Virus record (IMG/VR): IMGVR_UViG_3300044802_000021
Span: 1 to 39,399 of that record
DNA: 39,399 bases
Origin: a virus
Reading direction: 5' to 3' (one strand)
The notes beneath the pieces are model-generated. The model did not search any database. It saw nothing but the letters and a program-made list of their open reading frames with translations, and was not told the DNA's origin. A program made the position numbers and the translations under genes. Shown piece by piece: positions 896 through 39,399 of this stretch. Position 1 is the first letter of the stretch. Every line of letters begins with the position of its first letter.

Positions 896-1990
896 TCAAG
901 CGCAACTAGGAGAGCTATGATTATTTGTTCTTCGCATAGCAACCGACAGCGTCGATGGTCGCGCTCGTCGGAGGAGATGTCGTGCTTGTATTCGAGATGG
1001 TCCAATTTGCTGCCGCGCCCGCTTGGACAAGGGGGTTGGCGACAAAATGAGCGCCGCCGCGGGTGAAAACCCGCAACCCGTCTGCGCCATGTGAGTGCTG
1101 GTATCCGTTTTCGTCGCGAAGCTTCCAACATGCGCTTTCAAACCAGCAATCGCCGCGTAGCACAAGGAATAGGTTCCGACAGAAACGGTTCGATGAATAG
1201 TGAATCCGCCGGAAACAAACGTGTCGATGTAGCCACGATTATTAAGTGTCGGAGTAGCAACTCCTGTTCTGGTAACTCCGGAATAACATTCGTTGTGCTG
1301 GCCGTAGTGCAGCTCTTGATTGTTTGAGCCCTGGCCCGCGGCCATGTGAACGACGGTCGCCTGATTTGTGCCATCGGAAAAACCGACGTTAAGGCATGAG
1401 GTTGCATAATTCTGCGCTGACGCATAAAGCGATTCCGCAGAAACACCACTGAGCGCGGTAAGCACACAAGCGGGGGTGATTCCCAATCCGGTTATGTTTT
1501 CGCTTCCGGTACTACCGGTCTCCGAAATGGTTCCCAAGGCGGTTCCCGTGATGTCTGAGCCGCCAAGTGCGAGATAGAAAATTCGCACTGTACCGACAGC
1601 CGGAGCCGAACCCGCTGTCTGGGGATAAAGAGTGAACCCGCCGGAATCCATAGAATGCAGCGAGTAGGTTGAGTAAGGGTCGTTAGGGCCCGAGGTGTTG
1701 CCTTTTCCGTGCACGATGCAATAAACGGAAGTGCACGCGACTTGCGTGAAGCCTCCCCCGGTTTCTCCGTCCTTCTCATAAAAGGATTGGCACCATTGGT
1801 TCGTTCCGTCGGCAGCCCCGAAATTTCGATTTAAGTACGAGTTGATCGCGACCCCTAGCGCGTTGCTCCCGCTCGTTTGCGCCATTGACCAAAAGAAAAT
1901 AATCTTCGGCTGAAAACCCAAGCCCGTTATCACTATGTTAGCTGACGGATTGGGAAGAGCAAAAGAACCTACTGCCGATGAAAGCGACAT
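896..1990 (-). CDS. Tail fibre / receptor-binding protein, 5' part with a chimeric 3' end
   Basis: Start ATG at 1990 follows AGAGGAAACAG. Residues 1-317 contain two complete copies and the start of a third copy of a roughly 140-residue beta-rich repeat. Each copy opens with a glycine-rich ITGLGFxP-like strand and closes with a GGFTxxxx...YxAxAGLK-like strand. Downstream of position 1040 the assembled frame degenerates into a basic tail unlike the rest, ending at 896. The sensible continuation is 39272 down to 38667, which gives a 518-residue fibre in the same frame. The gene follows the tail-tip genes, the usual place for host-recognition fibres. Its GC content is lower than that of its neighbours, consistent with modular exchange. 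Confidence 0.7.
   Translation of the reverse strand: MSLSSAVGSFALPNPSANIVITGLGFQPKIIFFWSMAQTSGSNALGVAINSYLNRNFGAADGTNQWCQSFYEKDGETGGGFTQVACTSVYCIVHGKGNTSGPNDPYSTYSLHSMDSGGFTLYPQTAGSAPAVGTVRIFYLALGGSDITGTALGTISETGSTGSENITGLGITPACVLTALSGVSAESLYASAQNYATSCLNVGFSDGTNQATVVHMAAGQGSNNQELHYGQHNECYSGVTRTGVATPTLNNRGYIDTFVSGGFTIHRTVSVGTYSLCYAAIAGLKAHVGSFATKTDTSTHMAQTGCGFSPAAALILSPTPLSKRARQQIGPSRIQARHLLRRARPSTLSVAMRRTNNHSSPSCA
921..1039 (-). pseudogene. Orphan 3' end of a second tail-fibre gene
   Basis: On the minus strand, in a different frame from the fibre reading through 1040-1990, this stretch reads VANPLVQAGAAANWTISN and ends TIDAVGCYAKNK followed by TAA. That is plausible fibre C-terminal sequence. 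It is followed 35 bases later by the ribosome site and start of the propeller gene. The shared repeat reads sensibly only in the other frame, so the junction at 1039/1040 is out of frame. Either a real recombination with frameshift or an assembly chimera would explain this. Confidence 0.5.
1040..1166. repeat. 127-bp exact direct repeat, copy 1
   Basis: Identical to 39273-39399, the last 127 bases of the window. The identity begins at CGACAAAATG and ends at GCACAAG. The preceding bases differ. The length equals a common maximal k-mer of short-read assemblers, so it most likely marks a graph node where the circular or permuted map closes and where two alternative upstream paths meet. It encodes the start of the third beta-repeat of the fibre. 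Confidence 0.9.
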
Positions 1991-2002
1991 AACTGTTTCC
2001 TC

Positions 2003-2446
2003 TTAACTTGTCCTGTATCCGTACAGCGTGATTCCCACGTCCGCCAGCGTCGCGTCCGCCGTCGCCGGCCCGTCGACCTCTAGGAGATCGCCCGCGGCGA
2101 AACTCTCGTCCGACGCTTGCGTAAACGCGCCGACGGCGCCGCCGGCCGAATACTTGACGGTCGCGAATGAACTCCCGTTCTTTTTGAGCGTGAAAGTCGT
2201 GTCGGCCGTCGCGTTGGTGCTTGCGGCCGCGTAGGAATTCGCGGCACTCGCTGGAAACAGCACGGCCCGCGTCAGTTTGACGCGGAGGAGGATTTGTGCG
2301 TTCGCGCCCACACCAGGCGCGAAGATCGGAACATCGAACGGCGCCGTGTACTCCGCGGAGACGTTTCCGCTCCCGTCCTTTTGAAAGCCGACGTTTAGTT
2401 TTCCCGCCGCCGGTGACGGCGTTGTAGAGTTGAACGTTACACTCAT
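2003..2446 (-). CDS. Small virion / tail-associated protein
   Basis: A 147-residue protein starting at ATG 2446 with GGGGAGC upstream. It is rich in Ala, Ser, Thr and Gly, has no membrane segment, and has predicted beta-sandwich character. The centre carries alternating strands (TTFTLKKNGSSFATVKYSAG) and the C-terminus ends GITLYGYRTS. Proteins of this kind are common next to fibre genes in siphoviruses and are usually annotated as hypothetical structural proteins. It sits between the tail tip gene and the fibre gene in the same orientation, so a role in the distal tail or as a fibre adaptor is inferred from context only. Confidence 0.6.
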   Translation of the reverse strand: MSVTFNSTTPSPAAGKLNVGFQKDGSGNVSAEYTAPFDVPIFAPGVGANAQILLRVKLTRAVLFPASAANSYAAASTNATADTTFTLKKNGSSFATVKYSAGGAVGAFTQASDESFAAGDLLEVDGPATADATLADVGITLYGYRTS

Positions 2447-2470
2447 TAGAGCTCCCCTTCCCTGCCAAAC

Positions 2471-5410
2471 CTAAGAAGTCGTCAGAGGCAAAATCCAGTC
2501 CGGAGCGTTCGCGTCGACCGCGAGCCAGTAATCGTCTGACATAGCGACGTCGTCGACGAGGACGCTTTGATTGGTTGCCGATCCGCTCGCGCCTTTGATA
2601 TTTCCGACGGCGGATCCCCACGATCCGCTCGCTTGCTGGTAGACATCCCCGTTCGTGATGTTGAGGTAATAGTCGCCGTCGCTATGCGTCGTCGAGGGAG
2701 CTCCCGCGCCCTCGTACCACTTGCTCCCCGCCGCGCCGGCGGAGCCCGCCGCGCCTTTTATGTTTCCGACCGGCGATCCCCACGATCCGGAAACTTGCTG
2801 GTAGACGTCGCCATTCGTGACGTTGAGGTAATAGTCGCCGTCGCTGTGCGTCGTCGAGGGAGCTCCCGCGCCCTCGTACCACTTGCTTCCCGCGGCGCCA
2901 GCGGACCCCGCCGCTCCGGTTGCGCCGGTTGCTCCGGCCGATCCCGCGGATCCCGTCGCTCCCGTAGATCCCGCCGCTCCGGTTGCTCCGGCTGATCCCG
3001 TGGGCCCGGTTGCGCCGGTTGGTCCCGTCGGCCCGGTTGCTCCCGTTGGCCCAGACGTGGGGATCGTTGCCGGTTTCAAGAAATCGAATCCCGCCTCAAA
3101 AAAAACAACGCGCGTCCCCAAGGGATGATCCGCGGGGACCGTGTCCAGAACGCCGCGCATGATCCCAGAGATCGAGACCGTTCCGTCACCGTTCAACGTG
3201 ACCGTTTCCCACGAACAAAACTCCCCGGTATCGACGAACATGAGGAGGTTCTTTCCGTTCGACAAACCGCTCGCATCCGTCGAGATCAACGCATCGAGAT
3301 CTCGCGCGCCGGTCGCCGACAAGACGAAACCGGTCCCGTCCGTCGCTCCCGTATTCACGGGATAATCGGCGGAGAGGAGACCGGAAAGCATGAAACCGCC
3401 GATCGTTCCGTAGCTCGAATATGCCGAGCCGCCCGCCTCGTCCGCGAATACTTCGAAAGCCTTGCTCACCGCATCGCCGCGGACGCAACCGACCGTGATC
3501 CGCTCGTCGGCCGAAATCGAAAACGCATAGGGACTCTCGATCGCCATTTGATAGTCCGGCGCCGCCGGCGCCGCGTTCGGATCCGTCCAGCCCGACGCCG
3601 GCGGAGCGAGAAACGCCATCGAACTGATCCCGAAAATATCCTCGACGGCGTCGATCGTGATCTTTCCATCCAGGAGCGATCCGTATCCGATCCGCGTGAT
3701 CCGATAGACCGCGTTTTCGATTTGGAGAGGCGCCCACGTCCAACGGAACAACCCTCCCGGCCGCCAGTTCCACGCCGTCCGATTCGTGATGATCTTGACC
3801 TTCGCTAGAGGATAGGTGAGCGTTTTGAGGACGCGGATCGCCACCAGGCCCGCCGTCGCCGAATTCGAGATCCCTTTAAAATCGATCGTTTGCGGCCGCA
3901 CCTCGCCCGTCACGCGAATGTTTGCGGGATCGTAGGCGTTTATGATCCCGTCGGCGAAATCGCCGGCCCGGTTGCTGTATTTGATCGCGACGCGGTTCGT
4001 CGTCTCGCTCCAGGATCCGCGCGAAAAATCCGGCGTCGCGAGAACGTTGTCGACCGTGAGGACCGGGAGCGTCGAGGGATCATATCCGCCGCGCGCGAGG
4101 ACGATCGTCCAGAGCCCCGTCGACGGATCCGTATAAAGGAGCCCGTCGACGTGCCGGAGGATCTCGCCGATCAACTGATCGGCGCTCCCTTGCGTATCGA
4201 ACTGCATCGAGATCCCGAGACCCTCAGCCGCGAGCGTCGCGCCGGCCGCGATGAAACTCGCCGCGCCGATCGTCGTGTAAGGGAGCCCGAGACCCCAGTT
4301 CGGATCCGTGAGCGCTTCATAGATCGCGAAAGCTGCGTTCGCATCCCCGTTGATATTCGCGACCGCGTCGCCCTGGGCCAGAGGATCCGGACACCGGCGA
4401 ATCACGAACGCCGGAGGCTTGAGGTAATTTGACGTGCCCATGTACGTCTGACAAAAAACCGCGTAGCACTTCCCGCGGTATGCCGGCGCGACTTTCGAGT
4501 GCGAGGTCGAAATCACGAACTTGTCGCCGTTCGCGAACTGGATCGATCCCCGGTTGATCGTGAAGTTTATGATCGGACAGGAGAACGCTTGATCGGCCCA
4601 ACAGCCGCGGGAGCCGTCACTGTTCGGCCCCGCGTTGATCTGTTCACCGGAGACCGATCCGACGACGTGGAACTCCATGTGTTGATAGGTCCCATGCGTG
4701 TTATTGCCGTCGATCCCGTAAGCTGTGATCGTGATCGTCTCGTCGAGAGAACTGGATCCCCCGGATTCGCTGGAAATCGTTCCGTTGCCCACGCCGGAAA
4801 ACTCGTATCCGATCCCAGACTGATCCAGAACGATGCGCCCCTGTTTTGCCCCCAGGTAATCGTCCGGTTGCTGCGTTTGGACTCCGCGATAAAAATTGAT
4901 CTGTCCGGAGACGCCGCCGGCGCCGCCCGCGGCCGTTCCGCCGAACAATTTGTCGCCGGTCGCCGTGAGTTTGAGATAGTTCTCGCTCCCGTTTCCGTTC
5001 GTGATCGTCGCCGAAGTGTACGGGAGATCCTTTTTGTCGAACTCGATCGAGAGGAGCGCATCGATCGCTCCGTGACAAAGCATCATCTGACAGCCGAGAA
5101 AATACTTGTATCCCGTGACCGTCGAACGCCCGAGCTCCAGGATCCCGCCGCCAACTTTGACCGCTTTCGATTTGAGATCGCCCCACCATACCGTGTTACC
5201 TCCGGCGATCTTCACCGTCCCGAAAACGACCGGGATCGCGCGACCCTCTTCCGCCGTTGGGACAGAGAAATCCCCGAGCGCCGACGGTTGCGGCCCCTGA
5301 GGATGCGGAGCCAGCAAAGCGCCGACGACGGTCGTCGCGACGAATAGCAGTAGAAGAAGCCAGAAGATGACCGCACCTCTTTCCGCGTCAACCGACGCTC
5401 GCGCTCCCAT
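2471..5410 (-). CDS. Tail tip / host-specificity protein with collagen-like C-terminus
   Basis: A 979-residue protein. The N-terminus has a hydrophobic segment at about residues 14-34 (VIFWLLLLLFVATTVVGALL), then FSVPTAEEGRAIPVVFGTV, a phrase typical of the large phage tail-tip proteins related to lambda J and GTA tail proteins. The middle (about residues 340-590) carries the NWGLGLP-type segment and the WRPGGLFRWTW region of the Phage-tail_3-like fold. From about residue 787 there are Gly-x-y collagen-like triplets (GPTGATGPTGPTG), then two near-identical 54-residue modules beginning KWYEGAGAP, and a short unique end. It overlaps the upstream tail gene by 23 bases. No good ribosome site precedes the start, so coupled translation is likely. 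It forms the tail tip that contacts the host and probably bears the fibres. Confidence 0.75.
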   Translation of the reverse strand: MGARASVDAERGAVIFWLLLLLFVATTVVGALLAPHPQGPQPSALGDFSVPTAEEGRAIPVVFGTVKIAGGNTVWWGDLKSKAVKVGGGILELGRSTVTGYKYFLGCQMMLCHGAIDALLSIEFDKKDLPYTSATITNGNGSENYLKLTATGDKLFGGTAAGGAGGVSGQINFYRGVQTQQPDDYLGAKQGRIVLDQSGIGYEFSGVGNGTISSESGGSSSLDETITITAYGIDGNNTHGTYQHMEFHVVGSVSGEQINAGPNSDGSRGCWADQAFSCPIINFTINRGSIQFANGDKFVISTSHSKVAPAYRGKCYAVFCQTYMGTSNYLKPPAFVIRRCPDPLAQGDAVANINGDANAAFAIYEALTDPNWGLGLPYTTIGAASFIAAGATLAAEGLGISMQFDTQGSADQLIGEILRHVDGLLYTDPSTGLWTIVLARGGYDPSTLPVLTVDNVLATPDFSRGSWSETTNRVAIKYSNRAGDFADGIINAYDPANIRVTGEVRPQTIDFKGISNSATAGLVAIRVLKTLTYPLAKVKIITNRTAWNWRPGGLFRWTWAPLQIENAVYRITRIGYGSLLDGKITIDAVEDIFGISSMAFLAPPASGWTDPNAAPAAPDYQMAIESPYAFSISADERITVGCVRGDAVSKAFEVFADEAGGSAYSSYGTIGGFMLSGLLSADYPVNTGATDGTGFVLSATGARDLDALISTDASGLSNGKNLLMFVDTGEFCSWETVTLNGDGTVSISGIMRGVLDTVPADHPLGTRVVFFEAGFDFLKPATIPTSGPTGATGPTGPTGATGPTGSAGATGAAGSTGATGSAGSAGATGATGAAGSAGAAGSKWYEGAGAPSTTHSDGDYYLNVTNGDVYQQVSGSWGSPVGNIKGAAGSAGAAGSKWYEGAGAPSTTHSDGDYYLNITNGDVYQQASGSWGSAVGNIKGASGSATNQSVLVDDVAMSDDYWLAVDANAPDWILPLTTS
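2590..2913. repeat. Two tandem 162-bp repeats inside the tail tip gene
   Basis: Units 2590-2751 and 2752-2913 are about 90% identical by eye. Each encodes a collagen-like linker followed by KWYEG...GDYYLN...GDVYQQ and ending NIKG. The identity is strongest around the stretches encoding the KWYEGAGAP and DGDYYLN motifs. This looks like a recent in-frame duplication of a small C-terminal module. Confidence 0.85.
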
Positions 5411-16522: not shown

Positions 16523-18691
16523 TTAGGTCGTGAGGACGTATTTCGCGACGACGAACGCCAGAGGGTATTTGAGCACTACGTCAGTTAACATAAAGGTAGT
16601 TAACTCTATCATACCCTGTTTTTTTAATCTATAAGGATCGACCACTAATTCAAATCCCGATCCCCACATCGCGATTATCATCGTCTCGAAAACGCCCCGG
16701 ATGAGCGTATGGCAGTTCGCGCCGCTCGTTCCTTGGACGTTGTTTTTCGCGACCTGATTCGAGGAGCGCGCCCGGAATCCGTCGACCGTGTTGTCGTCCG
16801 CCCAGATCGGGAGACCGATCACGTTCCCCAAACGCGCCGTGCGCTTGAGTGAGGACTTGATCCCCGGCGTGGTGAGCCATCCCCCATCGCCCAATTGATC
16901 CGCGTTCGCGTCTTCCAGTTTCTCGGACATGATGATGATGTCGTCCCACGAGAGGATGCCGCCATTGTGACCGCCCGCGACGCCTGCGATCGTCTCGTAG
17001 GATTGCACGCCGGAAGTCGGGACGATTCCCGTCGGCTGATTCGATCCGCCGCCCACGATCGCGACGGAATCGACCGCCAACGCCATATCGCGCCCGAGAT
17101 CCTCGCGCACGAGGGTGTCGACATCGATCACCGCTTGCGCGAGCAATTGGCGCGAATAGCTGGACGAGGACTGGTAAGTCTTCGGCGAACTGGGAATCGC
17201 TCCCAGTGTGACCGCGGAGTCGCCCACATCCTGTCCCGGATTCTCCCCGACCCACGAGCCCGTCGCCTTTCCCGTTTGCTTCGGGAAAGAGACGTTATCG
17301 CGGAGACCGGCGATCGTGCGAGCTCCCAATTCCCTGACGCGCATCCGATTGTAAAGGAATTGGATAAACTCACCCGGTTCCACGAAGACGAGCTCCGCGC
17401 CGCCCGTCGAGGTGCCGGCCGCGAGTGCGACTCCGGCGCCGCCGCCGGCGCGCTTGGAAACCGCATCGCCGTACTTCGTTTGGAGCTCCGGCGTCCAGGC
17501 GTGACGGAGACTCCACGGAACGAACAATCCGCCGTGACGTTCCGCTTTCCACGTTTTCTCGATCTGCTCCGAGATTTCCATCTCGAAAGTGTTCTCGCGC
17601 TTGCCGGCGCTTCCGCCGCTCGCGCGTTCGATGTTCGTGACCGCGGCCATGATCCCGCGCGCCAGGTTGTACTCTTTCTGCTCTTTGTCGGTGAGGTCGA
17701 GCCGTTCCGCGCCCGGTTGCGGGAGCGGAGCCGCGCCGCGCTTCTCGAGTTCCGTCAAAACTTCGCGCGAGAAAGCGTCGACAGTCTTTCCGTCGGCGAC
17801 CGCTTGCGCGACTTTTTCCTGATCGATCCCGTGTACTTTGCCAAGCCGAACGATCTCAGCCGCGGCCGAACGGGATTCTTGCAGAGTGATTACTGGGTCC
17901 ACGTTGCCCTCCTTAGAATTCGGCCTTTCAGCCGGTTGATTGACAGCACGTACCAAAACTGGAAAACGCCTCTCGCCTTCGGCCGCGCGCTCGTGACCGA
18001 CCGTCGGATCCGCCGGAACTCCCACGGAACTCGCCTCCATCGGCGCCCATTTCGTCGCGCGATAGGTGTCGCCCTCTTCCTTCGAGGACTTTTCGAGGAC
18101 ATACTCGCGGACCTGATATCCGACGGAAATAAAACGCCGGATCTTGTCCTGGATATCCGTCTTGACCTGTTGCGCCGGCGCGCTCCGCGAGAACCGCAAC
18201 ACGCCGCGCAGTTTTTTGTCGTCGCCGACTTTCACCTTTTCGACGATGCCGACGATCGATTTGTAGTCGTGAGAGTCGAGAAAACTGAGACCCTTTTTCG
18301 CGCGCGAGAGATCGATCGCCTCCGGGGAGTGATCGAGGATCTCCGTCCCAAACCAACGTTCGACCGGAAATTCGGACGAGATCGAAATGTTGAATCGGTC
18401 CTCATCGCGTTTCCCTTGCGACTCTTCGGACTGATTCCCGGTATCCTGGGAACTTTCCTCCGCTTCCGCGTCGTCGTCTTCCTCGTTCGCGTCCGCGGGA
18501 TCCGGTTCCTTGCCCGCGGCCCTGGCGACTTTCACGCGTTCGCGGCGCGCCGCGCGCGCGACGACTTCCTCGGGAGTGAGGACTTTCTTTTCGCGTTTCG
18601 GGATCGAGATCATCTCCAGGACCTCGAAATCCCTAAAAAGCATCGGGAGCGAATCGCCGATCGGTTCGCGCTTTCTTAGCTCGACTGTCAT
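16523..18691 (-). CDS. Prohead protease - major capsid protein fusion (HK97 type)
   Basis: A 722-residue fusion. The start chosen is ATG 18691, which overlaps the portal stop by ATGA and has GGGAGGACGAA ahead. Longer in-frame starts run into the portal gene. An acidic linker (about residues 60-100) precedes the protease domain, where H141 (LDSHDY), S189 (RFISVGY) and E219 (APMEASSVG) fit the S78 prohead protease pattern. A linker of about 100 residues follows, then the HK97-fold capsid: FIQFLYNRMRVRELGARTI, then SWVGENPGQ, AVIDVDTLVREDLGRDMALA and a C-terminal ELVVDPYRLKKQG strand. The protein builds the head shell and the protease matures it. The last ~60 bases are unusually AT-rich, but the reading stays sensible. 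Confidence 0.9.
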   Translation of the reverse strand: MTVELRKREPIGDSLPMLFRDFEVLEMISIPKREKKVLTPEEVVARAARRERVKVARAAGKEPDPADANEEDDDAEAEESSQDTGNQSEESQGKRDEDRFNISISSEFPVERWFGTEILDHSPEAIDLSRAKKGLSFLDSHDYKSIVGIVEKVKVGDDKKLRGVLRFSRSAPAQQVKTDIQDKIRRFISVGYQVREYVLEKSSKEEGDTYRATKWAPMEASSVGVPADPTVGHERAAEGERRFPVLVRAVNQPAERPNSKEGNVDPVITLQESRSAAAEIVRLGKVHGIDQEKVAQAVADGKTVDAFSREVLTELEKRGAAPLPQPGAERLDLTDKEQKEYNLARGIMAAVTNIERASGGSAGKRENTFEMEISEQIEKTWKAERHGGLFVPWSLRHAWTPELQTKYGDAVSKRAGGGAGVALAAGTSTGGAELVFVEPGEFIQFLYNRMRVRELGARTIAGLRDNVSFPKQTGKATGSWVGENPGQDVGDSAVTLGAIPSSPKTYQSSSSYSRQLLAQAVIDVDTLVREDLGRDMALAVDSVAIVGGGSNQPTGIVPTSGVQSYETIAGVAGGHNGGILSWDDIIIMSEKLEDANADQLGDGGWLTTPGIKSSLKRTARLGNVIGLPIWADDNTVDGFRARSSNQVAKNNVQGTSGANCHTLIRGVFETMIIAMWGSGFELVVDPYRLKKQGMIELTTFMLTDVVLKYPLAFVVAKYVLTT

Positions 18692-28803: not shown

Positions 28804-29242
28804 TTTCGCCGTCCTCACGATTTCCTCCGGTTTCCGACACCTTTTCAACATCTTTTCCAACGGTCGCCGGCTGGCGGATCGGGATCGGCGCCGGCGCGAA
28901 GAGACTCAACTGGACCGCCGGAGGCGGGATCTCCTCCGGCCATTTGACCGAACCGACGAGGCGGATCTGCATCCCGTGATGCTCGCCGACGATCCGGACC
29001 TCCAGGAGCCCGGCGCGTTTCAACCGCGAGATATAACGCCTCAGCGAACGGATCGCCGGCGGATCCCCTCCCCAGTTCGCGAGGATCCATCGATACGTGA
29101 TCGCGCGACCGTAGAACACCCGGCCGTCGGCGTCCGTTTGCCGCGCGACGAGAAAGTCGTGGAGATAACTCGCCGCCCCGATCGCTTTCCTCATCGCTTC
29201 GCGCGCCGGTGAAATCGGAACATACCGCGAGCCGTGTTTCAT
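28772..29242 (-). CDS. Winged-helix replication-initiator-like protein
   Basis: A 156-residue protein; ATG 29242 overlaps the upstream stop by ATGA. A winged helix-turn-helix is visible at about residues 35-105: FYGRAITYRWILANWGGDPP, AIRSLRRYISRLKRAGLLEV and a wing VGEHHGMQIRLVG. This is the pattern of N-terminal replication-initiator domains of small phages and plasmids. The C-terminal ~50 residues are Pro- and acid-rich with no domain. Next to a VRR-NUC nuclease it suggests a compact replication/recombination block. No helicase or primase domain follows, so it may recruit the host replisome. Confidence 0.6.
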   Translation of the reverse strand: MKHGSRYVPISPAREAMRKAIGAASYLHDFLVARQTDADGRVFYGRAITYRWILANWGGDPPAIRSLRRYISRLKRAGLLEVRIVGEHHGMQIRLVGSVKWPEEIPPPAVQLSLFAPAPIPIRQPATVGKDVEKVSETGGNREDGEKARGQKWPSA

Positions 29243-29739
29243 TGGAGCGCCCGCCAATTGATCCGGAGCTCGCCGTTTAGATACGCCTCCACGTCGAGAA
29301 CGCTCCAAGCGATCATCACGAGTGCGCCGCGTCGCGCTTTCTCGCGGAGGAAATCGAGTTGCGCGTTCGAGGCTTTTCCCTCGAACCGGATCGTCCGTTT
29401 TTGGCCGTCGATCCACATCGGCGCTTTCACTTCGATATAGAGCGCCCGGCCCGCCGGCGCGAGCGTCGCCTCTAGATCCGCGAAGCCGGCCGGAATCGAG
29501 TACCACGTCTTTACGTTGGAAATACCGGCCAGATCGATACCCGCCTTTTTCGCGGCGCCCATCATCCGGCCGCGTTGCCGGCGCCCGCCGGCGTCGATCG
29601 CGACCGCATCGACGTTGTATGACTTGAGGAGCTCCAGGATATCCGCCTGGACGCGCGCTTCCGTGACTTGGCTCATTAAGTACAGATCGCTATAGCGCGA
29701 TCGCTCGAATCGCCAGGGGAAGGAAAATTCTCGTTTCAT
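29239..29739 (-). CDS. VRR-NUC domain nuclease
   Basis: A 166-residue protein starting at ATG 29739 (ATGA overlap with the upstream stop). The VRR-NUC/Holliday-junction-resolvase-like core is seen from about residue 60: KKAGIDLAGISN gives the metal-binding D, and RALYIEVKAPMW gives the E-x-K. The neighbouring QLDFLREKARRGALVMIAWS helix and strand complete the fold. Such nucleases cut branched DNA and are common in phage replication modules. It is a stand-alone domain without helicase. Confidence 0.75.
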   Translation of the reverse strand: MKREFSFPWRFERSRYSDLYLMSQVTEARVQADILELLKSYNVDAVAIDAGGRRQRGRMMGAAKKAGIDLAGISNVKTWYSIPAGFADLEATLAPAGRALYIEVKAPMWIDGQKRTIRFEGKASNAQLDFLREKARRGALVMIAWSVLDVEAYLNGELRINWRALQ

Positions 29740-29954
29740 GCGGCCGGCCGAAGGATCGCGAGCTCCAGGAGCTCGTCGAGTGGAATCGTCCCGATACAAC
29801 GGAAATTTGAGCAGAGCGTATGATCGAAATCGATCCACGCGCACGCGATGAGCGGTTCGCCTGGCGCGATTTGGAGGAGACACGGTTTCAATTGCGAGCA
29901 ACCGCACACGCGACACTTCCCCGGCGCGCCTGGCGCGATGATCCGTCCGCTCAT
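29736..29954 (-). CDS. Small cysteine-rich zinc-binding protein
   Basis: A 72-residue protein with CRVCGCSQLKPC near residue 14, a CAWID segment near residue 37 and TLCSNFRC near residue 46. This C-x2-C-x-C...C-x-W...LC pattern belongs to small phage zinc proteins often found beside nucleases. It overlaps neighbours by ATGA at both ends. A DNA-binding or nuclease-accessory role is likely from context. Confidence 0.65.
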   Translation of the reverse strand: MSGRIIAPGAPGKCRVCGCSQLKPCLLQIAPGEPLIACAWIDFDHTLCSNFRCIGTIPLDELLELAILRPAA

Positions 29955-31110: not shown

Positions 31111-32247
31111 TTACCGCGTTTTACCGCCGATGGAGATCACCTCCATCGCCGCCTCTATGAACGCTTGCGCTTGCGGCGCGACAATCGCGTTACCATAGCC
31201 CCGCAAGAGTCCCACGCGGTTGGCAATCCCATGAGCCAGCGGAAATGTGCCGGGTTCAACTGGCCGATATTTTCCGTCTGTGCAGTAGAGCCATTCGGCG
31301 TCGGCCCAGAAGCCGCTAACTGCGCCTGCACATCCAAAGTCCTGCCCGCTTTCTCCATTTCCGGCGACCTGGTTCTCCCTTCGTGGTAGCCGCCTTTGTG
31401 GTCCCTGTCGCTCGGACGCGCCCACCCCACCAATTCCACCGTCTTGCGCGAAGAGTCCGTGTTGCCCGCTTCGTTGTAAGTCTCCGTCGCCGGACTGCCT
31501 GCCATCGGACGCGGCCATGCTGCGAGTCTCGATACATTCCCCAATGTCATTCCGAAGCCGTTCCCGTTTCCCGTCCGGTCCTTGCACTCCTGATGCCTGC
31601 GATTCAGCGCCTCCTGATCCTTTTGCTCGTATTCGTTCGCGCTCGGCCTCGGCCAAGACGCCAACTCCGCCGCATTGCTCAGGTCGTGGGGAAACGAGTG
31701 ATTGTCCGCTTCCGTGTTCCCGCGTTTCTTGTCGTCGTGAGCTTGCGGCCTCGGCCACGAAGTAAAGTCGGCTTGAGATTTGCGGGGCACCGACACTGCA
31801 TGCTCCAAATACCGCCTTCCCAACGGCGTAGTCCGCCCTCTCCAAGTCAGTTTGAACAACGTCGAGCCACCCGTGGCCAATCGCGTCATCAACCTGTTCT
31901 CCAAAGATCGTTGGAGGCTTGCACTCGTAGATGAGTCGCGCCCAAGCAGGCCAGAGGTGACGAGGGTCATCAAAGCCTTTCCCTTGTCCGGCCGCTGAGA
32001 AACTGGGGCAAGGACAACTGCCTGTCCAAACAGGCCGATCATCGGGCCATCCGGCGAGGCGCAAAGCGTGACTCCACACTCCGATGCCGGCGAAGAAATG
32101 GCATTGCGTGAAGCCTCGGAGATCTTCGGGCTGGACTTCTTCGATTGATCGTTCGTCGACTTCCCCATCTGCGATCACCTTGTCCGCAATCAGCGCCCTC
32201 AACCATGCCGCCGCGAAAGAGTCGTTTTCGTTGTAATACGCCGTCAC
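31111..32247 (-). CDS. DNA cytosine-5 methyltransferase
   Basis: A 378-residue protein; ATG 32247 overlaps the integrase stop by ATGA. Motif I FAGIGVWSHAL at residue 52, motif IV GSCPCPSFSAAGQG with catalytic Cys near residue 80, a GEQV segment (motif VI, ENV-like), motif VIII SSRLYFVAEA and a C-terminal YGNAIVAPQAQAFIEAA (motif X) are all in order. The target-recognition part is replaced by a long Gly/Arg/Glu-rich region of about 130 residues. This region also codes in a second frame (31155-32168). It methylates cytosine, probably to protect phage DNA from host restriction. Composition is less GC-rich than neighbours. Confidence 0.85.
   Translation of the reverse strand: MTAYYNENDSFAAAWLRALIADKVIADGEVDERSIEEVQPEDLRGFTQCHFFAGIGVWSHALRLAGWPDDRPVWTGSCPCPSFSAAGQGKGFDDPRHLWPAWARLIYECKPPTIFGEQVDDAIGHGWLDVVQTDLERADYAVGKAVFGACSVGAPQISSRLYFVAEAASSRRQETREHGSGQSLVSPRPEQCGGVGVLAEAERERIRAKGSGGAESQASGVQGPDGKRERLRNDIGECIETRSMAASDGRQSGDGDLQRSGQHGLFAQDGGIGGVGASERQGPQRRLPRRENQVAGNGESGQDFGCAGAVSGFWADAEWLYCTDGKYRPVEPGTFPLAHGIANRVGLLRGYGNAIVAPQAQAFIEAAMEVISIGGKTR
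31155..32168 (-). CDS. Overprinted protein inside the methyltransferase gene (WPRP-repeat type)
   Basis: A same-strand frame, offset from the methyltransferase and lying wholly inside it, open for 337 codons. ATG 32168 has AAGGTG seven bases ahead. The product is not random: four repeats of SWPRP/AWPRP/GWARP type occur near residues 137, 170, 217 and 249. It also has GGSTLFKLTWRGRTTPLGRR and a C-terminal LNPAHFRWLMGLPTAWDSCG followed by a basic tail. I recall phage hypothetical proteins with the same WP-repeat and NPAH-RWLMG ending. Function unknown. Dual coding is suggested but expression is unproved; it could be a conserved shadow of the methyltransferase. Confidence 0.5.
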   Translation of the reverse strand: MGKSTNDQSKKSSPKISEASRNAISSPASECGVTLCASPDGPMIGLFGQAVVLAPVSQRPDKGKALMTLVTSGLLGRDSSTSASLQRSLENRLMTRLATGGSTLFKLTWRGRTTPLGRRYLEHAVSVPRKSQADFTSWPRPQAHDDKKRGNTEADNHSFPHDLSNAAELASWPRPSANEYEQKDQEALNRRHQECKDRTGNGNGFGMTLGNVSRLAAWPRPMAGSPATETYNEAGNTDSSRKTVELVGWARPSDRDHKGGYHEGRTRSPEMEKAGRTLDVQAQLAASGPTPNGSTAQTENIGQLNPAHFRWLMGLPTAWDSCGAMVTRLSRRKRKRS

Positions 32248-33260
32248 TTCTTCGCTTCCACCATTTTTTCCGCCGCGGCCGTGAGGTGCGATGGCGAGAT
32301 ATGCAGGTATCGCTCCGTCATTTTCAGGGTTTTGTGCCCGAGGAGTTCCTGTACCTCCCGGATGGTCGCGCCTTTTTTCAGCGCGCGCGACGCGAACGTG
32401 TGTCGAACGTCGTGATAGTGGAATTTTTGGATCCCCGCCGCTTTGACCGCGACCTCAAACCAACGCCGCCAGTCCCGCTCCGCGGACCCGTCATTATCCG
32501 GACAGACGAAGTCACGCGCCCCGGAGATCTTCTGGAGTTCCAGGAGCGCCAGGCGCGCCTCGGAATTGATCTCCACGGTCCGCGGCCCTGTTTTTCCGAC
32601 AGCGATCGCGCGATTGATTTCCAGATCCACGTCCGCCCACCTCAAAAAAAACTGTTCCCCGCGCCGCATTCCCGCGTATAGCGCGAGGTGAAACTCCCAC
32701 TCGTGGGAATCCTGGACGAACTCTTTTCGGAGACGCGCCTCTTCTTCGTCGCTCAAATAGCGCGTGCGCGGAGGATTCTCCGGATACTTTTCGACTTTTT
32801 CGATCGGATTCGCGGGGATCAGACCTAGCTTCACGCCGTGCGAGAAAATGCTCGATAGCAGCGATCGGTAAAGGTTGACCGTGGAATTCGAGAGGACGCG
32901 GCCGCGTTTCAATTCCCCGAGGAGCTCCTCGATCCGCGCCGGCGTGAGTCGCGCGACGCGTGAATGTCCGATCCGCGGGAGCAATTTGTCCAGGCGGAGC
33001 CGGTTCGATTCGACCGTCGCCGGCCGCGCGCGCAGGCTTTTTTCGGCCATCGCCTCCCGCGCGAGCCGCGCGAACGTCCAGGAGCACCGCGGGACGTACT
33101 CCCCTCGTTTGACCTCATCCTCGCGCGTCCGGCGGAGACGGATCGCCGCCGGTTTCGAGCCGGCGAGCTCGCGAACTCGCCGGCCGCTTCCGTCGCGAAA
33201 GTCCGCGCCCCAAACTCCGCTCCCGCGGGGACGCTCGAAAATGCCCCGGATCTTTTCCAC
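32244..33260 (-). CDS. int: Tyrosine-family site-specific integrase
   Basis: A 338-residue protein. GTG 33260, eight bases past the upstream stop and with AGAGGT ahead, is chosen because residues 5-50 (RGIFERPRGSGVWGADFRD) form the usual N-terminal arm-binding domain. A SAM-like core domain follows (ATVESNRLRLDKLLPRIG). The catalytic residues are in place: R199 (AGMRRGE), H283-x2-R286 (HYHDVRHTF), H309 (LLGHK) and Y318 (TERYLHI). It integrates the phage into the host chromosome. The stop overlaps the methyltransferase start, so the attachment site is not directly downstream as is common; none was recognised. Confidence 0.92.
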   Translation of the reverse strand: MEKIRGIFERPRGSGVWGADFRDGSGRRVRELAGSKPAAIRLRRTREDEVKRGEYVPRCSWTFARLAREAMAEKSLRARPATVESNRLRLDKLLPRIGHSRVARLTPARIEELLGELKRGRVLSNSTVNLYRSLLSSIFSHGVKLGLIPANPIEKVEKYPENPPRTRYLSDEEEARLRKEFVQDSHEWEFHLALYAGMRRGEQFFLRWADVDLEINRAIAVGKTGPRTVEINSEARLALLELQKISGARDFVCPDNDGSAERDWRRWFEVAVKAAGIQKFHYHDVRHTFASRALKKGATIREVQELLGHKTLKMTERYLHISPSHLTAAAEKMVEAKK

Positions 33261-33268
33261 GCGACCTC

Positions 33269-34012
33269 TCAGGAGATAACCGGGACCTTCGGGATCTTCG
33301 GTTCGAGCCACTTCGCGATCGCGTCGACGGCCGCGAGTTGCCAACGCCCGCCATCGCCCTCGAATAGTGCCAGGTTGACCGTAGCCCCCTGGACGCGCGC
33401 GCGGAAGACGAACGTCGAGAGGACCTGATCGATCTCCGCAAAGGTTCGATATGGCGCGAGCGACACGATCGGCCGGAGCGTGTCCGTAGTTTTGAGCGTG
33501 ACGCCGGAACGCATCGCGACTTTTTGCGTGATCCCGTCGTCCTCGTAACTCGTCCCCGCCTCTGCGCTGATCTGGGACGCGCACTTGAGGACATAGTCGA
33601 GATCTTTCGCGAACGTCCCGTCGTCGTTCTCGATCTTGACGCGTTGGAAATGCTGTTGCGCCGCGATGATGAACGATTCCGGATCGAGCCAGGCGCCGAA
33701 CGGAAACGACTTGCAACCGGGATATTTCGCCTCCGCCCATACGCGCCGGCGCCCGCAATCGTCCGACTCGCGGGAAACGAGCTCGACGGTCGTCGGGCTC
33801 GTGATGTGCGCCAGGAGATCGCCCTTTGACATCGCGTCGTCGAGCTCGCCGGCGTACAAGTCGACGAGTCCCTGGAGCGTCCGGCACTCGACCGACTTCG
33901 GCGCCGGCGGATAGATCAGATTCAGATTTTTGTCGCTGTACTCCAGATCCCCGGCCGTGTGAATGTTTGGAGCCCCGAGGGATAGAATTTTCGTCACGAA
34001 TTCGGAAAGCAT
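33269..34012 (-). CDS. DUF2303/YfdQ-like early protein
   Basis: A 247-residue protein. ATG 34012 has GGAGG eight bases ahead; the ATG at 34027 has none. The C-terminal half has YVLKCASQISAEAGTSYEDD, then GVTLKTTDTLRPIVSLAPYR and TFAEIDQVLSTFVFR, then LALFEGDGGRWQLAAVDAIA, which match the order of the DUF2303 (YfdQ) family found in prophages. Function is unknown; such genes sit near recombination or integrase loci, as here. Confidence 0.65.
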   Translation of the reverse strand: MLSEFVTKILSLGAPNIHTAGDLEYSDKNLNLIYPPAPKSVECRTLQGLVDLYAGELDDAMSKGDLLAHITSPTTVELVSRESDDCGRRRVWAEAKYPGCKSFPFGAWLDPESFIIAAQQHFQRVKIENDDGTFAKDLDYVLKCASQISAEAGTSYEDDGITQKVAMRSGVTLKTTDTLRPIVSLAPYRTFAEIDQVLSTFVFRARVQGATVNLALFEGDGGRWQLAAVDAIAKWLEPKIPKVPVIS

Positions 34013-37613: not shown

Positions 37614-38654
37614 TCACGTTATGACGAAATTCACATCGTGCACTCGGACCTTGACGCCGCCGCTCGTCGAATCGCTCATCACCTGTTGCCCGTAGAAAAA
37701 TTGCATGCGCAAAAGCCCGAGCGATTGATCGACCGGGATCGAAACGGAGTAGACCTGGCGCGCGACTGGCCCGCCGCCGATCGCGACGCTCAGGAGCGGC
37801 CACCGCAGAAACGTGAAGCCCACGGAGCAGAAAATCGCGGGGACATCGCCCATCACGAGCCCCGCGTAGTTCGCTCCGTTTGCGTCATTCTCGACGATTT
37901 CGAGATCTATATTCGCCGTGATCGAGGCCGCGGTCGTCGGCCCGTTCGGAGGTTCGCTCGCCACGAAAGACACCGCGGCCGTCTGCCCCGTTCCTGGGCA
38001 GTAGAATTCCGTGTAGCTGTCCGTGTCGCTATCGATCACATTTCCGAGAGTGTGCGCGTTGCCCGCCGTTTGCCCGCCGATCGTCCCCGGATCCGCGCCG
38101 CCTGGCCCGATCGCCGTCGGCCGCTTCGTTCCCGTCGTCCCTGGAGGATCCGGCGCCGGCGGAGTCCAGCCCGGAGGTGCCTCTGGAGGTCCGCCGGTCG
38201 AGACGCCGCTCATCACGAACGTGAGGCTCCGCGAAGTCCCGGAAATCCCGCCGTGTACCGGCATGATCGTGAGCGTGACCGCATGCGTGAGGTTCGCATC
38301 GTCGGCGAGCCGTTGCGCGGCCGAATAGAAATACGAGTTGCCCGTGATCCCCGTCACCGTGCGAATCAGAGAACCGTTAATGTGAATCGTGACCGTGTAC
38401 GAGCCCTCCGGCCCGCCGGCCACATCGCCGGCATCTTGCGCGACGATGTACGGACCCAAACGGTTGCGATGATTCCAACTGATCGTCACGTCGCCATCGG
38501 GAGAAATCGCGAAAGCCACACCGTTGATCTTCACGTTTCCCGGGGGATACGGCGCCGCCGCGCGGGAGACTGGCGCGAGGTTCACGGCCGTGAGAGTCGT
38601 CGGATCGATCTCACCGGCCGAAGTGAACGGCGCAAGTTTTATATTCGTCGACAT
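37614..38654 (-). CDS. Tail-associated virion protein with FN3-like domain
   Basis: A 346-residue protein with GAGGAGCCA before ATG 38654. The N-terminal region (about 40-150) resembles a fibronectin-III-like domain (VKINGVAFAISPDGDVTISW, YTVTIHINGSLIRTV). A Pro/Gly/Thr-rich hinge follows at about 150-190 (PPEAPPGWTPPAPDPPGTTG), then a beta-rich C-terminal domain. It lies 12 bases downstream of the fibre gene once the map is closed. It probably decorates the tail or fibre base. Confidence 0.6.
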   Translation of the reverse strand: MSTNIKLAPFTSAGEIDPTTLTAVNLAPVSRAAAPYPPGNVKINGVAFAISPDGDVTISWNHRNRLGPYIVAQDAGDVAGGPEGSYTVTIHINGSLIRTVTGITGNSYFYSAAQRLADDANLTHAVTLTIMPVHGGISGTSRSLTFVMSGVSTGGPPEAPPGWTPPAPDPPGTTGTKRPTAIGPGGADPGTIGGQTAGNAHTLGNVIDSDTDSYTEFYCPGTGQTAAVSFVASEPPNGPTTAASITANIDLEIVENDANGANYAGLVMGDVPAIFCSVGFTFLRWPLLSVAIGGGPVARQVYSVSIPVDQSLGLLRMQFFYGQQVMSDSTSGGVKVRVHDVNFVIT

Positions 38655-38666
38655 TGGCTCCTCAAT

Positions 38667-39399
38667 CTATCCCGTCCAGAACGCCGGGACGTTCGGACTT
38701 TTCGCCGCGCTCGCCGCCGACGCTGTGAAATTCACGCCGGTTATATCCGACGAGCTCACGCCCTCGCTCGCGCTCGTCGGGGAAAACGTGTATCCCGACT
38801 TTGTCGGAGTGATCGCGTAGCTCCCCGCCGAGAGTCCCGTGATCGAATAGTTTCCGCTCCCGTCCGCCGTCACGGATCCCGAAGCCGTCCCCGTGTAGCC
38901 GACGCTCGCGGCCGCGACGCCGGCGCTCCCGGATATGGAATAAGTCGGGACGGCGGCCGCCCCAAAAGCCAGATAGAACGCTATGTTCGCTTGCGGATCC
39001 GCTGTGGTCATCACAGTCGTGAAGCCGTCGGAATCTACAGAGACCATGTCCATCGCGCCTTGCACGGACGGAGAAGATGCCGAGAGAACGTTTTGATAGA
39101 CCTTATCGTAGGCGATCGCAGAATCATCGTGAGTCGGACTGCCGGAATTAACAGATGCTTCACCGTAAGCTAAGCGCGACGATGAACTAGCGAAAGCGCC
39201 GATCGACATCCCGGAATTGTCCGTCGAACCCGAACCTTGCAAGGTTCCCTGTGTAGCTTCCGCATCGCAAGCCGACAAAATGAGCGCCGCCGCGGGTGAA
39301 AACCCGCAACCCGTCTGCGCCATGTGAGTGCTGGTATCCGTTTTCGTCGCGAAGCTTCCAACATGCGCTTTCAAACCAGCAATCGCCGCGTAGCACAAG
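38667..39399 (-). CDS. Tail fibre / receptor-binding protein, 3' part (continues at 1040)
   Basis: This is the C-terminal part of the 518-residue fibre whose first 317 codons are at 1990-1040. It completes the third ~140-residue beta-repeat (HMAQTGCGFSPAAALILSAC, later DSDGFTTVMTTADPQANIAF). It ends with a carboxypeptidase-regulatory-like Ig domain (GSVTADGSGNYSITGLSAGS, then YTFSPTSASEGVSSSDITGV). Stop at 38667 lies 12 bases ahead of the next gene. The last 300 bases are more GC-rich than the middle, so the gene looks mosaic. The C-terminal domain is the likely receptor-contact or trimerisation end. Confidence 0.75.
   Translation of the reverse strand, partial: LCYAAIAGLKAHVGSFATKTDTSTHMAQTGCGFSPAAALILSACDAEATQGTLQGSGSTDNSGMSIGAFASSSSRLAYGEASVNSGSPTHDDSAIAYDKVYQNVLSASSPSVQGAMDMVSVDSDGFTTVMTTADPQANIAFYLAFGAAAVPTYSISGSAGVAAASVGYTGTASGSVTADGSGNYSITGLSAGSYAITPTKSGYTFSPTSASEGVSSSDITGVNFTASAASAAKSPNVPAFWTG
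39273..39399. repeat. 127-bp exact direct repeat, copy 2 (right window end)
   Basis: Identical to 1040-1166. In the map-closing reading both copies are one piece of DNA within the fibre gene. Codon phase is the same in both copies, and crossing from one to the other keeps the fibre frame intact. Confidence 0.9.

Follow-up and report, generated by a model that had tools for sequence, protein, structure and literature searches.

The window analysed here is a 39,399-nucleotide stretch of viral DNA (positions 1 to 39,399 of IMG/VR record IMGVR_UViG_3300044802_000021). A C5-cytosine methyltransferase ORF of 378 codons with a GTG start occupies positions 31,111 to 32,247 of its minus strand. Inside it, in frame +1 relative to the methyltransferase frame, a second ORF of 337 codons runs from an ATG over positions 31,155 to 32,168 of the same strand. 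A Shine-Dalgarno-like AAGGTG (32,176 to 32,181, minus strand) ends 7 nt 5' of this ATG; the nested frame, its start and the AAGGTG lie where a preliminary description, made from the sequence alone, had placed them. The methyltransferase frame contains, in order and all on the minus strand, motif I (FFAGIGVWS, 32,071 to 32,097), motif IV with the PC dipeptide and its catalytic cysteine (CPCPSFSAAG, 31,987 to 32,016), motif VI (GEQV, 31,891 to 31,902) and motif VIII (GAPQISSRLYFVA, 31,753 to 31,791). Motifs I and IV are conserved in the homologue alignment, and G116, E117 and Q118 of motif VI are invariant in it. A low-complexity region follows (31,333 to 31,752, minus strand), and then motif X (GYGNAIVAPQA, 31,168 to 31,200, minus strand), in which GYGNAIVAP (residues 350 to 358) fits the pattern GN[AGS][VI], with G352 invariant and N353 and A354 near-invariant among homologues.

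The low-complexity region of the methyltransferase frame coincides with the WPxP-repeat region of frame +1. The nested codons that overlap motif VIII continue directly into the first repeat. Four WPRP-type repeats had been described; three prove to be WPRP (31,746 to 31,757, 31,644 to 31,655 and 31,506 to 31,517, minus strand) and the fourth WARP (31,413 to 31,424, minus strand), and they are followed by QLNPAHFRWLMGLPTAWD (31,209 to 31,262, minus strand), the candidate motif IX of the nested frame. An integrase ORF (32,244 to 33,887) precedes the methyltransferase on the minus strand, and its end shares 4 bases with the start of the methyltransferase. Ten ORFs, around the methyltransferase and further along the same strand, were scanned with Pfam and PHROG. 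They match DUF5131, terminase and other phage families, with a weak endonuclease/resolvase-like match at 29,239 to 29,916 (phrog_93, E 2e-7), and no restriction enzyme family is named among the ten. The window has a GC content of about 60% and holds other long antisense ORFs. The very long ORFs at 16,895 to 18,679 and 37,638 to 39,173 of the plus strand, antisense to other long ORFs, are probably GC-driven shadow ORFs, so that ORF length alone is weak evidence here.

The methyltransferase matches phrog_363 (E 3.5e-77) and, over residues 75 to 171 only, PF00145 (E 5e-14). That it has no recognisable target-recognition domain (TRD), as first described, agrees with the PF00145 match, which covers the N-terminal half only, and with hhalign, which aligns only residues 2 to 172, with motifs I to VIII, to single-chain methyltransferases. 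Neither a TRD nor motif IX was found in the chain that carries the catalytic motifs; by hhalign and a frame census, motifs I to VIII and X are in one polypeptide and motif IX is in a second, that of frame +1. The nested ORF matches phrog_1008 over its residues 14 to 322 (E 1.5e-28). No family was found for it in Pfam or NCBIfam, a PDB sequence search returned no match, and the nested and methyltransferase frames do not align to each other. Its C-terminal QLNPAHxRWLMGLPxxWD aligns to motif IX of single-chain actinophage methyltransferases over 22 columns (hhalign, probability 95%, E 3.7e-8), and its LMGxPxxW partly echoes an xHGxxxRV stretch of the methyltransferase frame. Of the two putative homology links, phrog_1008 is the stronger, and it is independent of the first. 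Its matches are in the nested ORFs of four phage groups, namely this phage, Paenibacillus phage Likha, K1ind2 and Mycobacterium phage Bipolar, in the second of the two ORFs of Gordonia phage Upyo, and in the single-chain prophiGD91-2 methyltransferase (residues 188 to 381). By these matches, the predicted nested protein and the C-terminal half of single-chain actinophage methyltransferases, which is in frame there and comprises repeats and then motif IX, are members of one family. The nested ORF is thus probably the other part of the enzyme and not an unrelated overprint. The preliminary description had left the missing TRD and the second frame unconnected; the shared family probably connects them.

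The predicted model of the single-chain prophiGD91-2 enzyme matches M.HhaI end to end (Z 23.7, 246 aligned), with residues 300 to 382 confident and the repeat region of low confidence. For the nested protein, AF2 gave a model with a mean pLDDT of 58, whose confident parts are a helix (80 to 100), a hairpin (106 to 126) and the motif IX helix (306 to 313). No structural match to this low-confidence model was found in the PDB. The N-terminal helix-hairpin has no counterpart in the standard small domain of C5-methyltransferases. As the repeat region is of low confidence in both models, the TRD label rests on position.

Taken singly, this gene gives moderate evidence for the nested ORF: none of 100 synonymous codon shuffles keeps frame +1 open, with 3.1 stops expected. 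The comparison across homologues settles the matter. We used 112 non-redundant homologues (GC 0.53 to 0.68), gathered from viral and genome contigs by similarity in the methyltransferase frame, a procedure that favours genes in which that frame is intact. Frame +1 is open for 200 to 500 codons in nearly all of them and frame +2 is not. Against codon shuffles, which ignore dinucleotide effects and were controlled with frame +2, non-overlapping regions and unrelated methyltransferases, frame +1 holds 0 stops versus 195 ± 11 expected in the catalytic part and 1 versus 106 ± 8 in the variable part. Frame +2 shows no depletion (518 versus 468 expected in the catalytic part, 506 versus 553 in the variable part). 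Stops in the second frame of homologues had been named beforehand as a check on the overlap, and overall there is 1 where about 301 are expected. A +1 ATG at methyltransferase codons 24 to 42 opens the long frame in 101 of the 112 genes versus 11 in shuffles (maximum 19), and an ATG with a Shine-Dalgarno-like site is present in 95 of 112 versus 29. Where the ATG is at codon 36, the upstream arginine is encoded by AGG in 24 of 58 genes versus about 8% of all arginine codons, a choice that creates AGGAG before the nested ATG. The nested ORF begins at a conserved start of its own, and both frames are under selection. The conserved ATG, the Shine-Dalgarno-like site and the constrained open frame support independent translation of the putative nested polypeptide.

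Selection is divided between the two frames by region. In the codon-position test, made on 51 homologous pairs that are phylogenetically non-independent, substitution rates of the closer pairs at methyltransferase positions 1, 2 and 3 are 0.051, 0.033 and 0.159 in the catalytic part, 0.278, 0.151 and 0.107 in the variable part, and 0.074, 0.035 and 0.067 near the C-terminus. Since frame +1 has its third codon position at methyltransferase position 1, the catalytic part evolves as a methyltransferase and the low-complexity part as a +1 gene. Residues 166 to 305 are unconstrained in the methyltransferase frame by this test. Across the low-complexity region, selection acts on the protein of the second frame and the methyltransferase frame is carried along as a passenger; near the C-terminus, both frames are constrained.

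Synonymous change in the methyltransferase frame is strongly reduced over the overlap, the other result on which the preliminary description had made its claim depend (observed/expected codon identity 2.0 to 2.7 in the core versus 1.2 at the N-terminus). The ratio is 1.22 for residues 1 to 25, which lie outside the nested ORF, then 1.15, 1.23, 1.49, 2.05, 2.43 and 2.12 up to residue 169, and 2.10 and 2.71 at residues 305 to 351. Synonymous codons are frozen over residues 75 to 170, approximately, and 305 to 350, as illustrated by Pro111 (CCT in 110 of 112), Pro155 (CCG, 105 of 110), Ala150 (GCG, 92 of 92) and Val330 (GTT, 94 of 94). A nested ORF that merely echoes the methyltransferase motifs is ruled out by these frozen codons, which have no effect on the methyltransferase, and by the codon-position test, which frame +1 wins in the repeat region. 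Overprinting and not chance, as originally proposed, is supported by the stop depletion among homologues together with the reduced synonymous change. Synonymous constraint on the first 50 or so nested residues was looked for in the homologues and none was seen, which fits the gene of EBPR siphovirus 2 (L255:136-2631). There, a large intein-like insert in methyltransferase motif IV, between PC and QPFS, closes frame +1 locally and the nested core downstream is still open. Three other loci (L116, L118 and L131) carry a cysteine-rich, zinc-finger-like insert (such as CPSCGG...CLDC) after motif IV, in the N-terminal region of the methyltransferase, with frame +1 open throughout.

The same pattern is seen in a distant family of 38 low-GC, Paenibacillus-like genes (GC 0.38 to 0.60). 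Frame +1 holds 1 stop versus 125 ± 9 expected between motifs IV and VIII and 10 versus 84 beyond motif VIII; upstream of motif IV, where no nested gene is expected, there is no depletion (112 versus 83). Ordinary plasmid C5-methyltransferases show no depletion of +1 stops (25 versus 22, 8 versus 9.6 and 7 versus 7.3). Two further layouts occur in actinophages, one with two ORFs, in which motifs IX and X are both in frame +1, and one with a single chain, in which both are in frame 0. The two-ORF layout does not keep the deep overlap (18 stops versus 19.7), and the single-chain set has a weaker deficit that is not specific to frame +1 (11 versus 30 in +1, 26 versus 43 in +2). A census of frames by profile searches over the fetched loci, near-duplicates included, counted motif IX in +1 and motif X in 0 in 238 loci, both in +1 in 25 and both in 0 in 24. 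The nested arrangement is kept in hundreds of phages and is absent from many standard annotations.

Several loci show local variations. An HNH-endonuclease-like insertion follows motif IX in the nested frame of L131 (nested ORF 1610-3073) and L123; in L131 this part is fused in frame to the nested ORF, and the methyltransferase frame is also open across it. At L410 and L147, a frame change connects the catalytic frame to the part with the repeats and motif IX, through either a natural fusion or a sequencing error.

These data probably reflect a naturally split C5-methyltransferase, with its two chains encoded in two frames of a single stretch of about 1 kb of DNA. The methyltransferase ORF would encode the large, SAM-binding catalytic chain with motifs I to VIII and X, as proposed from its phrog_363, PF00145 and hhalign matches, and its low-complexity middle would be a bridge that need only stay open. 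The nested ORF, as proposed from phrog_1008, stop depletion, start conservation, the codon-position test and synonymous constraint, would encode the small chain, with a short helix-hairpin element, the WPxP repeats and motif IX, and would have a separate ATG and Shine-Dalgarno-like site for its translation. The repeats are probably the target-recognition region and would, by inference, read DNA. The two chains would then combine as a single enzyme for the methylation of phage DNA, probably as a defence against restriction by the host; orphan phage C5-methyltransferases usually serve for such protection. We infer heterodimer formation, a need for both chains, a target sequence and the anti-restriction role. 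A split enzyme would account for the low-complexity middles of these methyltransferases. The short +1 ORFs of some single-chain actinophage genes (L250, L264 and L265), which have the nested N-terminal pattern and LPTP repeats and no motif IX, are left unexplained by it. We lean, with less assurance, towards a broader view in which the enzyme is reciprocally overprinted: two same-strand frames over about 1 kb would each encode one structural domain of the methyltransferase and be a passenger over the domain of the other, an old arrangement that would be near-obligatory in phages of several bacterial phyla. The number and sequence of the repeats could then vary, as the repeat half would be free of constraint from the catalytic frame, and change specificity.

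The C5-methyltransferase fold, as in M.HhaI and M.HaeIII, comprises a large domain, in which most of the conserved motifs lie, and a small domain that holds the variable region together with motif IX, and separated fragments of several of these enzymes complement each other (PMC3404938). The two proposed chains would correspond to the large domain (I to VIII and X) and the small domain (TRD and IX) of M.HhaI and M.HaeIII, which are made as one chain in one frame whereas here there would be two chains in two frames. M.EcoHK31I (YGGCCR) is a natural two-polypeptide enzyme with the motif layout seen in the phage pair, motifs I to VIII and X in the large chain and motif IX in the small one; its predicted TRD is, however, in the large chain, whereas the region between VIII and IX is selected here in the nested frame (PMC3404938). 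In M.AquI, too, the division falls after motif VIII, and a second chain carries the distal part with motif IX (PMC3404938). This small chain of M.AquI holds motif X as well as motif IX, an arrangement shared by Gordonia phage Upyo (L251), whereas motif X is here in the large chain; the genes are nested here, unlike those of M.AquI. M.EcoHK31I is part of a restriction system, whereas no restriction enzyme was named among the neighbours tested here with Pfam and PHROG. Its small chain is also reportedly read in another frame inside the large one, an observation ascribed to Lee et al. 1995. If so, the phage loci would represent a phage-wide family of that arrangement.

Other explanations account less well for the two frames. 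The nested ORF might encode a real protein with a separate job, such as a regulator, an anti-restriction protein or a host-takeover factor, overprinted on the methyltransferase. Its tie to methylation is drawn from sequence, its helix-hairpin N-terminus is foreign to the standard small domain and its model has no structural match, all of which would suit such a protein. We nevertheless regard this as unlikely, since the nested ORF shares phrog_1008 with the in-frame C-terminal half of single-chain methyltransferases, carries motif IX where neither motif IX nor a constrained TRD was found in the methyltransferase frame, and is open in essentially all 112 homologues. Still less probable is programmed +1 ribosomal frameshifting from the methyltransferase frame into one fused catalytic and TRD chain, even though frame +1 takes over selection directly after motif VIII and single-chain relatives exist. 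Frameshifting does not need an open +1 frame over the whole catalytic part (0 stops versus 195) or constrained +1 codons from about residue 75, and the fused product would be without motif X; a frameshift-only model is disfavoured by this constraint in the catalytic half and by the conserved independent ATG with its Shine-Dalgarno-like site. That the open frame is a mere by-product of GC-rich codon usage and low-complexity sequence, with no gene in it, is hardly credible: the 60% GC or so of the window, its other long antisense ORFs and the 3.1 stops expected for this gene alone speak for it, but stop depletion, start conservation and synonymous constraint contradict it, frame +2 does not show the pattern, and the codon shuffles, the synonymous test and the low-GC Paenibacillus-type family, where the pattern recurs, rule out a chance ORF.

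Outside small viruses, it is rare for a long same-strand overlap to be maintained across phyla, and such overlaps are often dropped by annotation pipelines. If the split-enzyme reading is correct, the small subunit is missing from the annotation of many phage C5-methyltransferases. A clone of the annotated gene could still yield both chains, whereas recoding it for synthesis would destroy the second. The nested, two-ORF and single-chain relatives would also provide a clean system for studying the movement of domains between reading frames. Several phage records already annotate both ORFs. In the open-access literature, outside which most subscription journals lie, we found no paper that describes, explains or tests the nested methyltransferase arrangement of phages. 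Public records hold the nested family as phrog_1008, as the 'Mte8-like' ORF28 of phage K1ind2 and as the 'g55 internal gene' of Paenibacillus phage Shelly, and label it as methyltransferase, hypothetical or internal gene only. Among the matches listed, the E. coli (RefSeq) rows carry one methyltransferase each, except for one row with two features. In Mycobacterium phage Bipolar (L252:1433-1984), gp69, annotated as 'DNA methyltransferase', is a protein of the nested type, and the catalytic methyltransferase lies unannotated in another frame.
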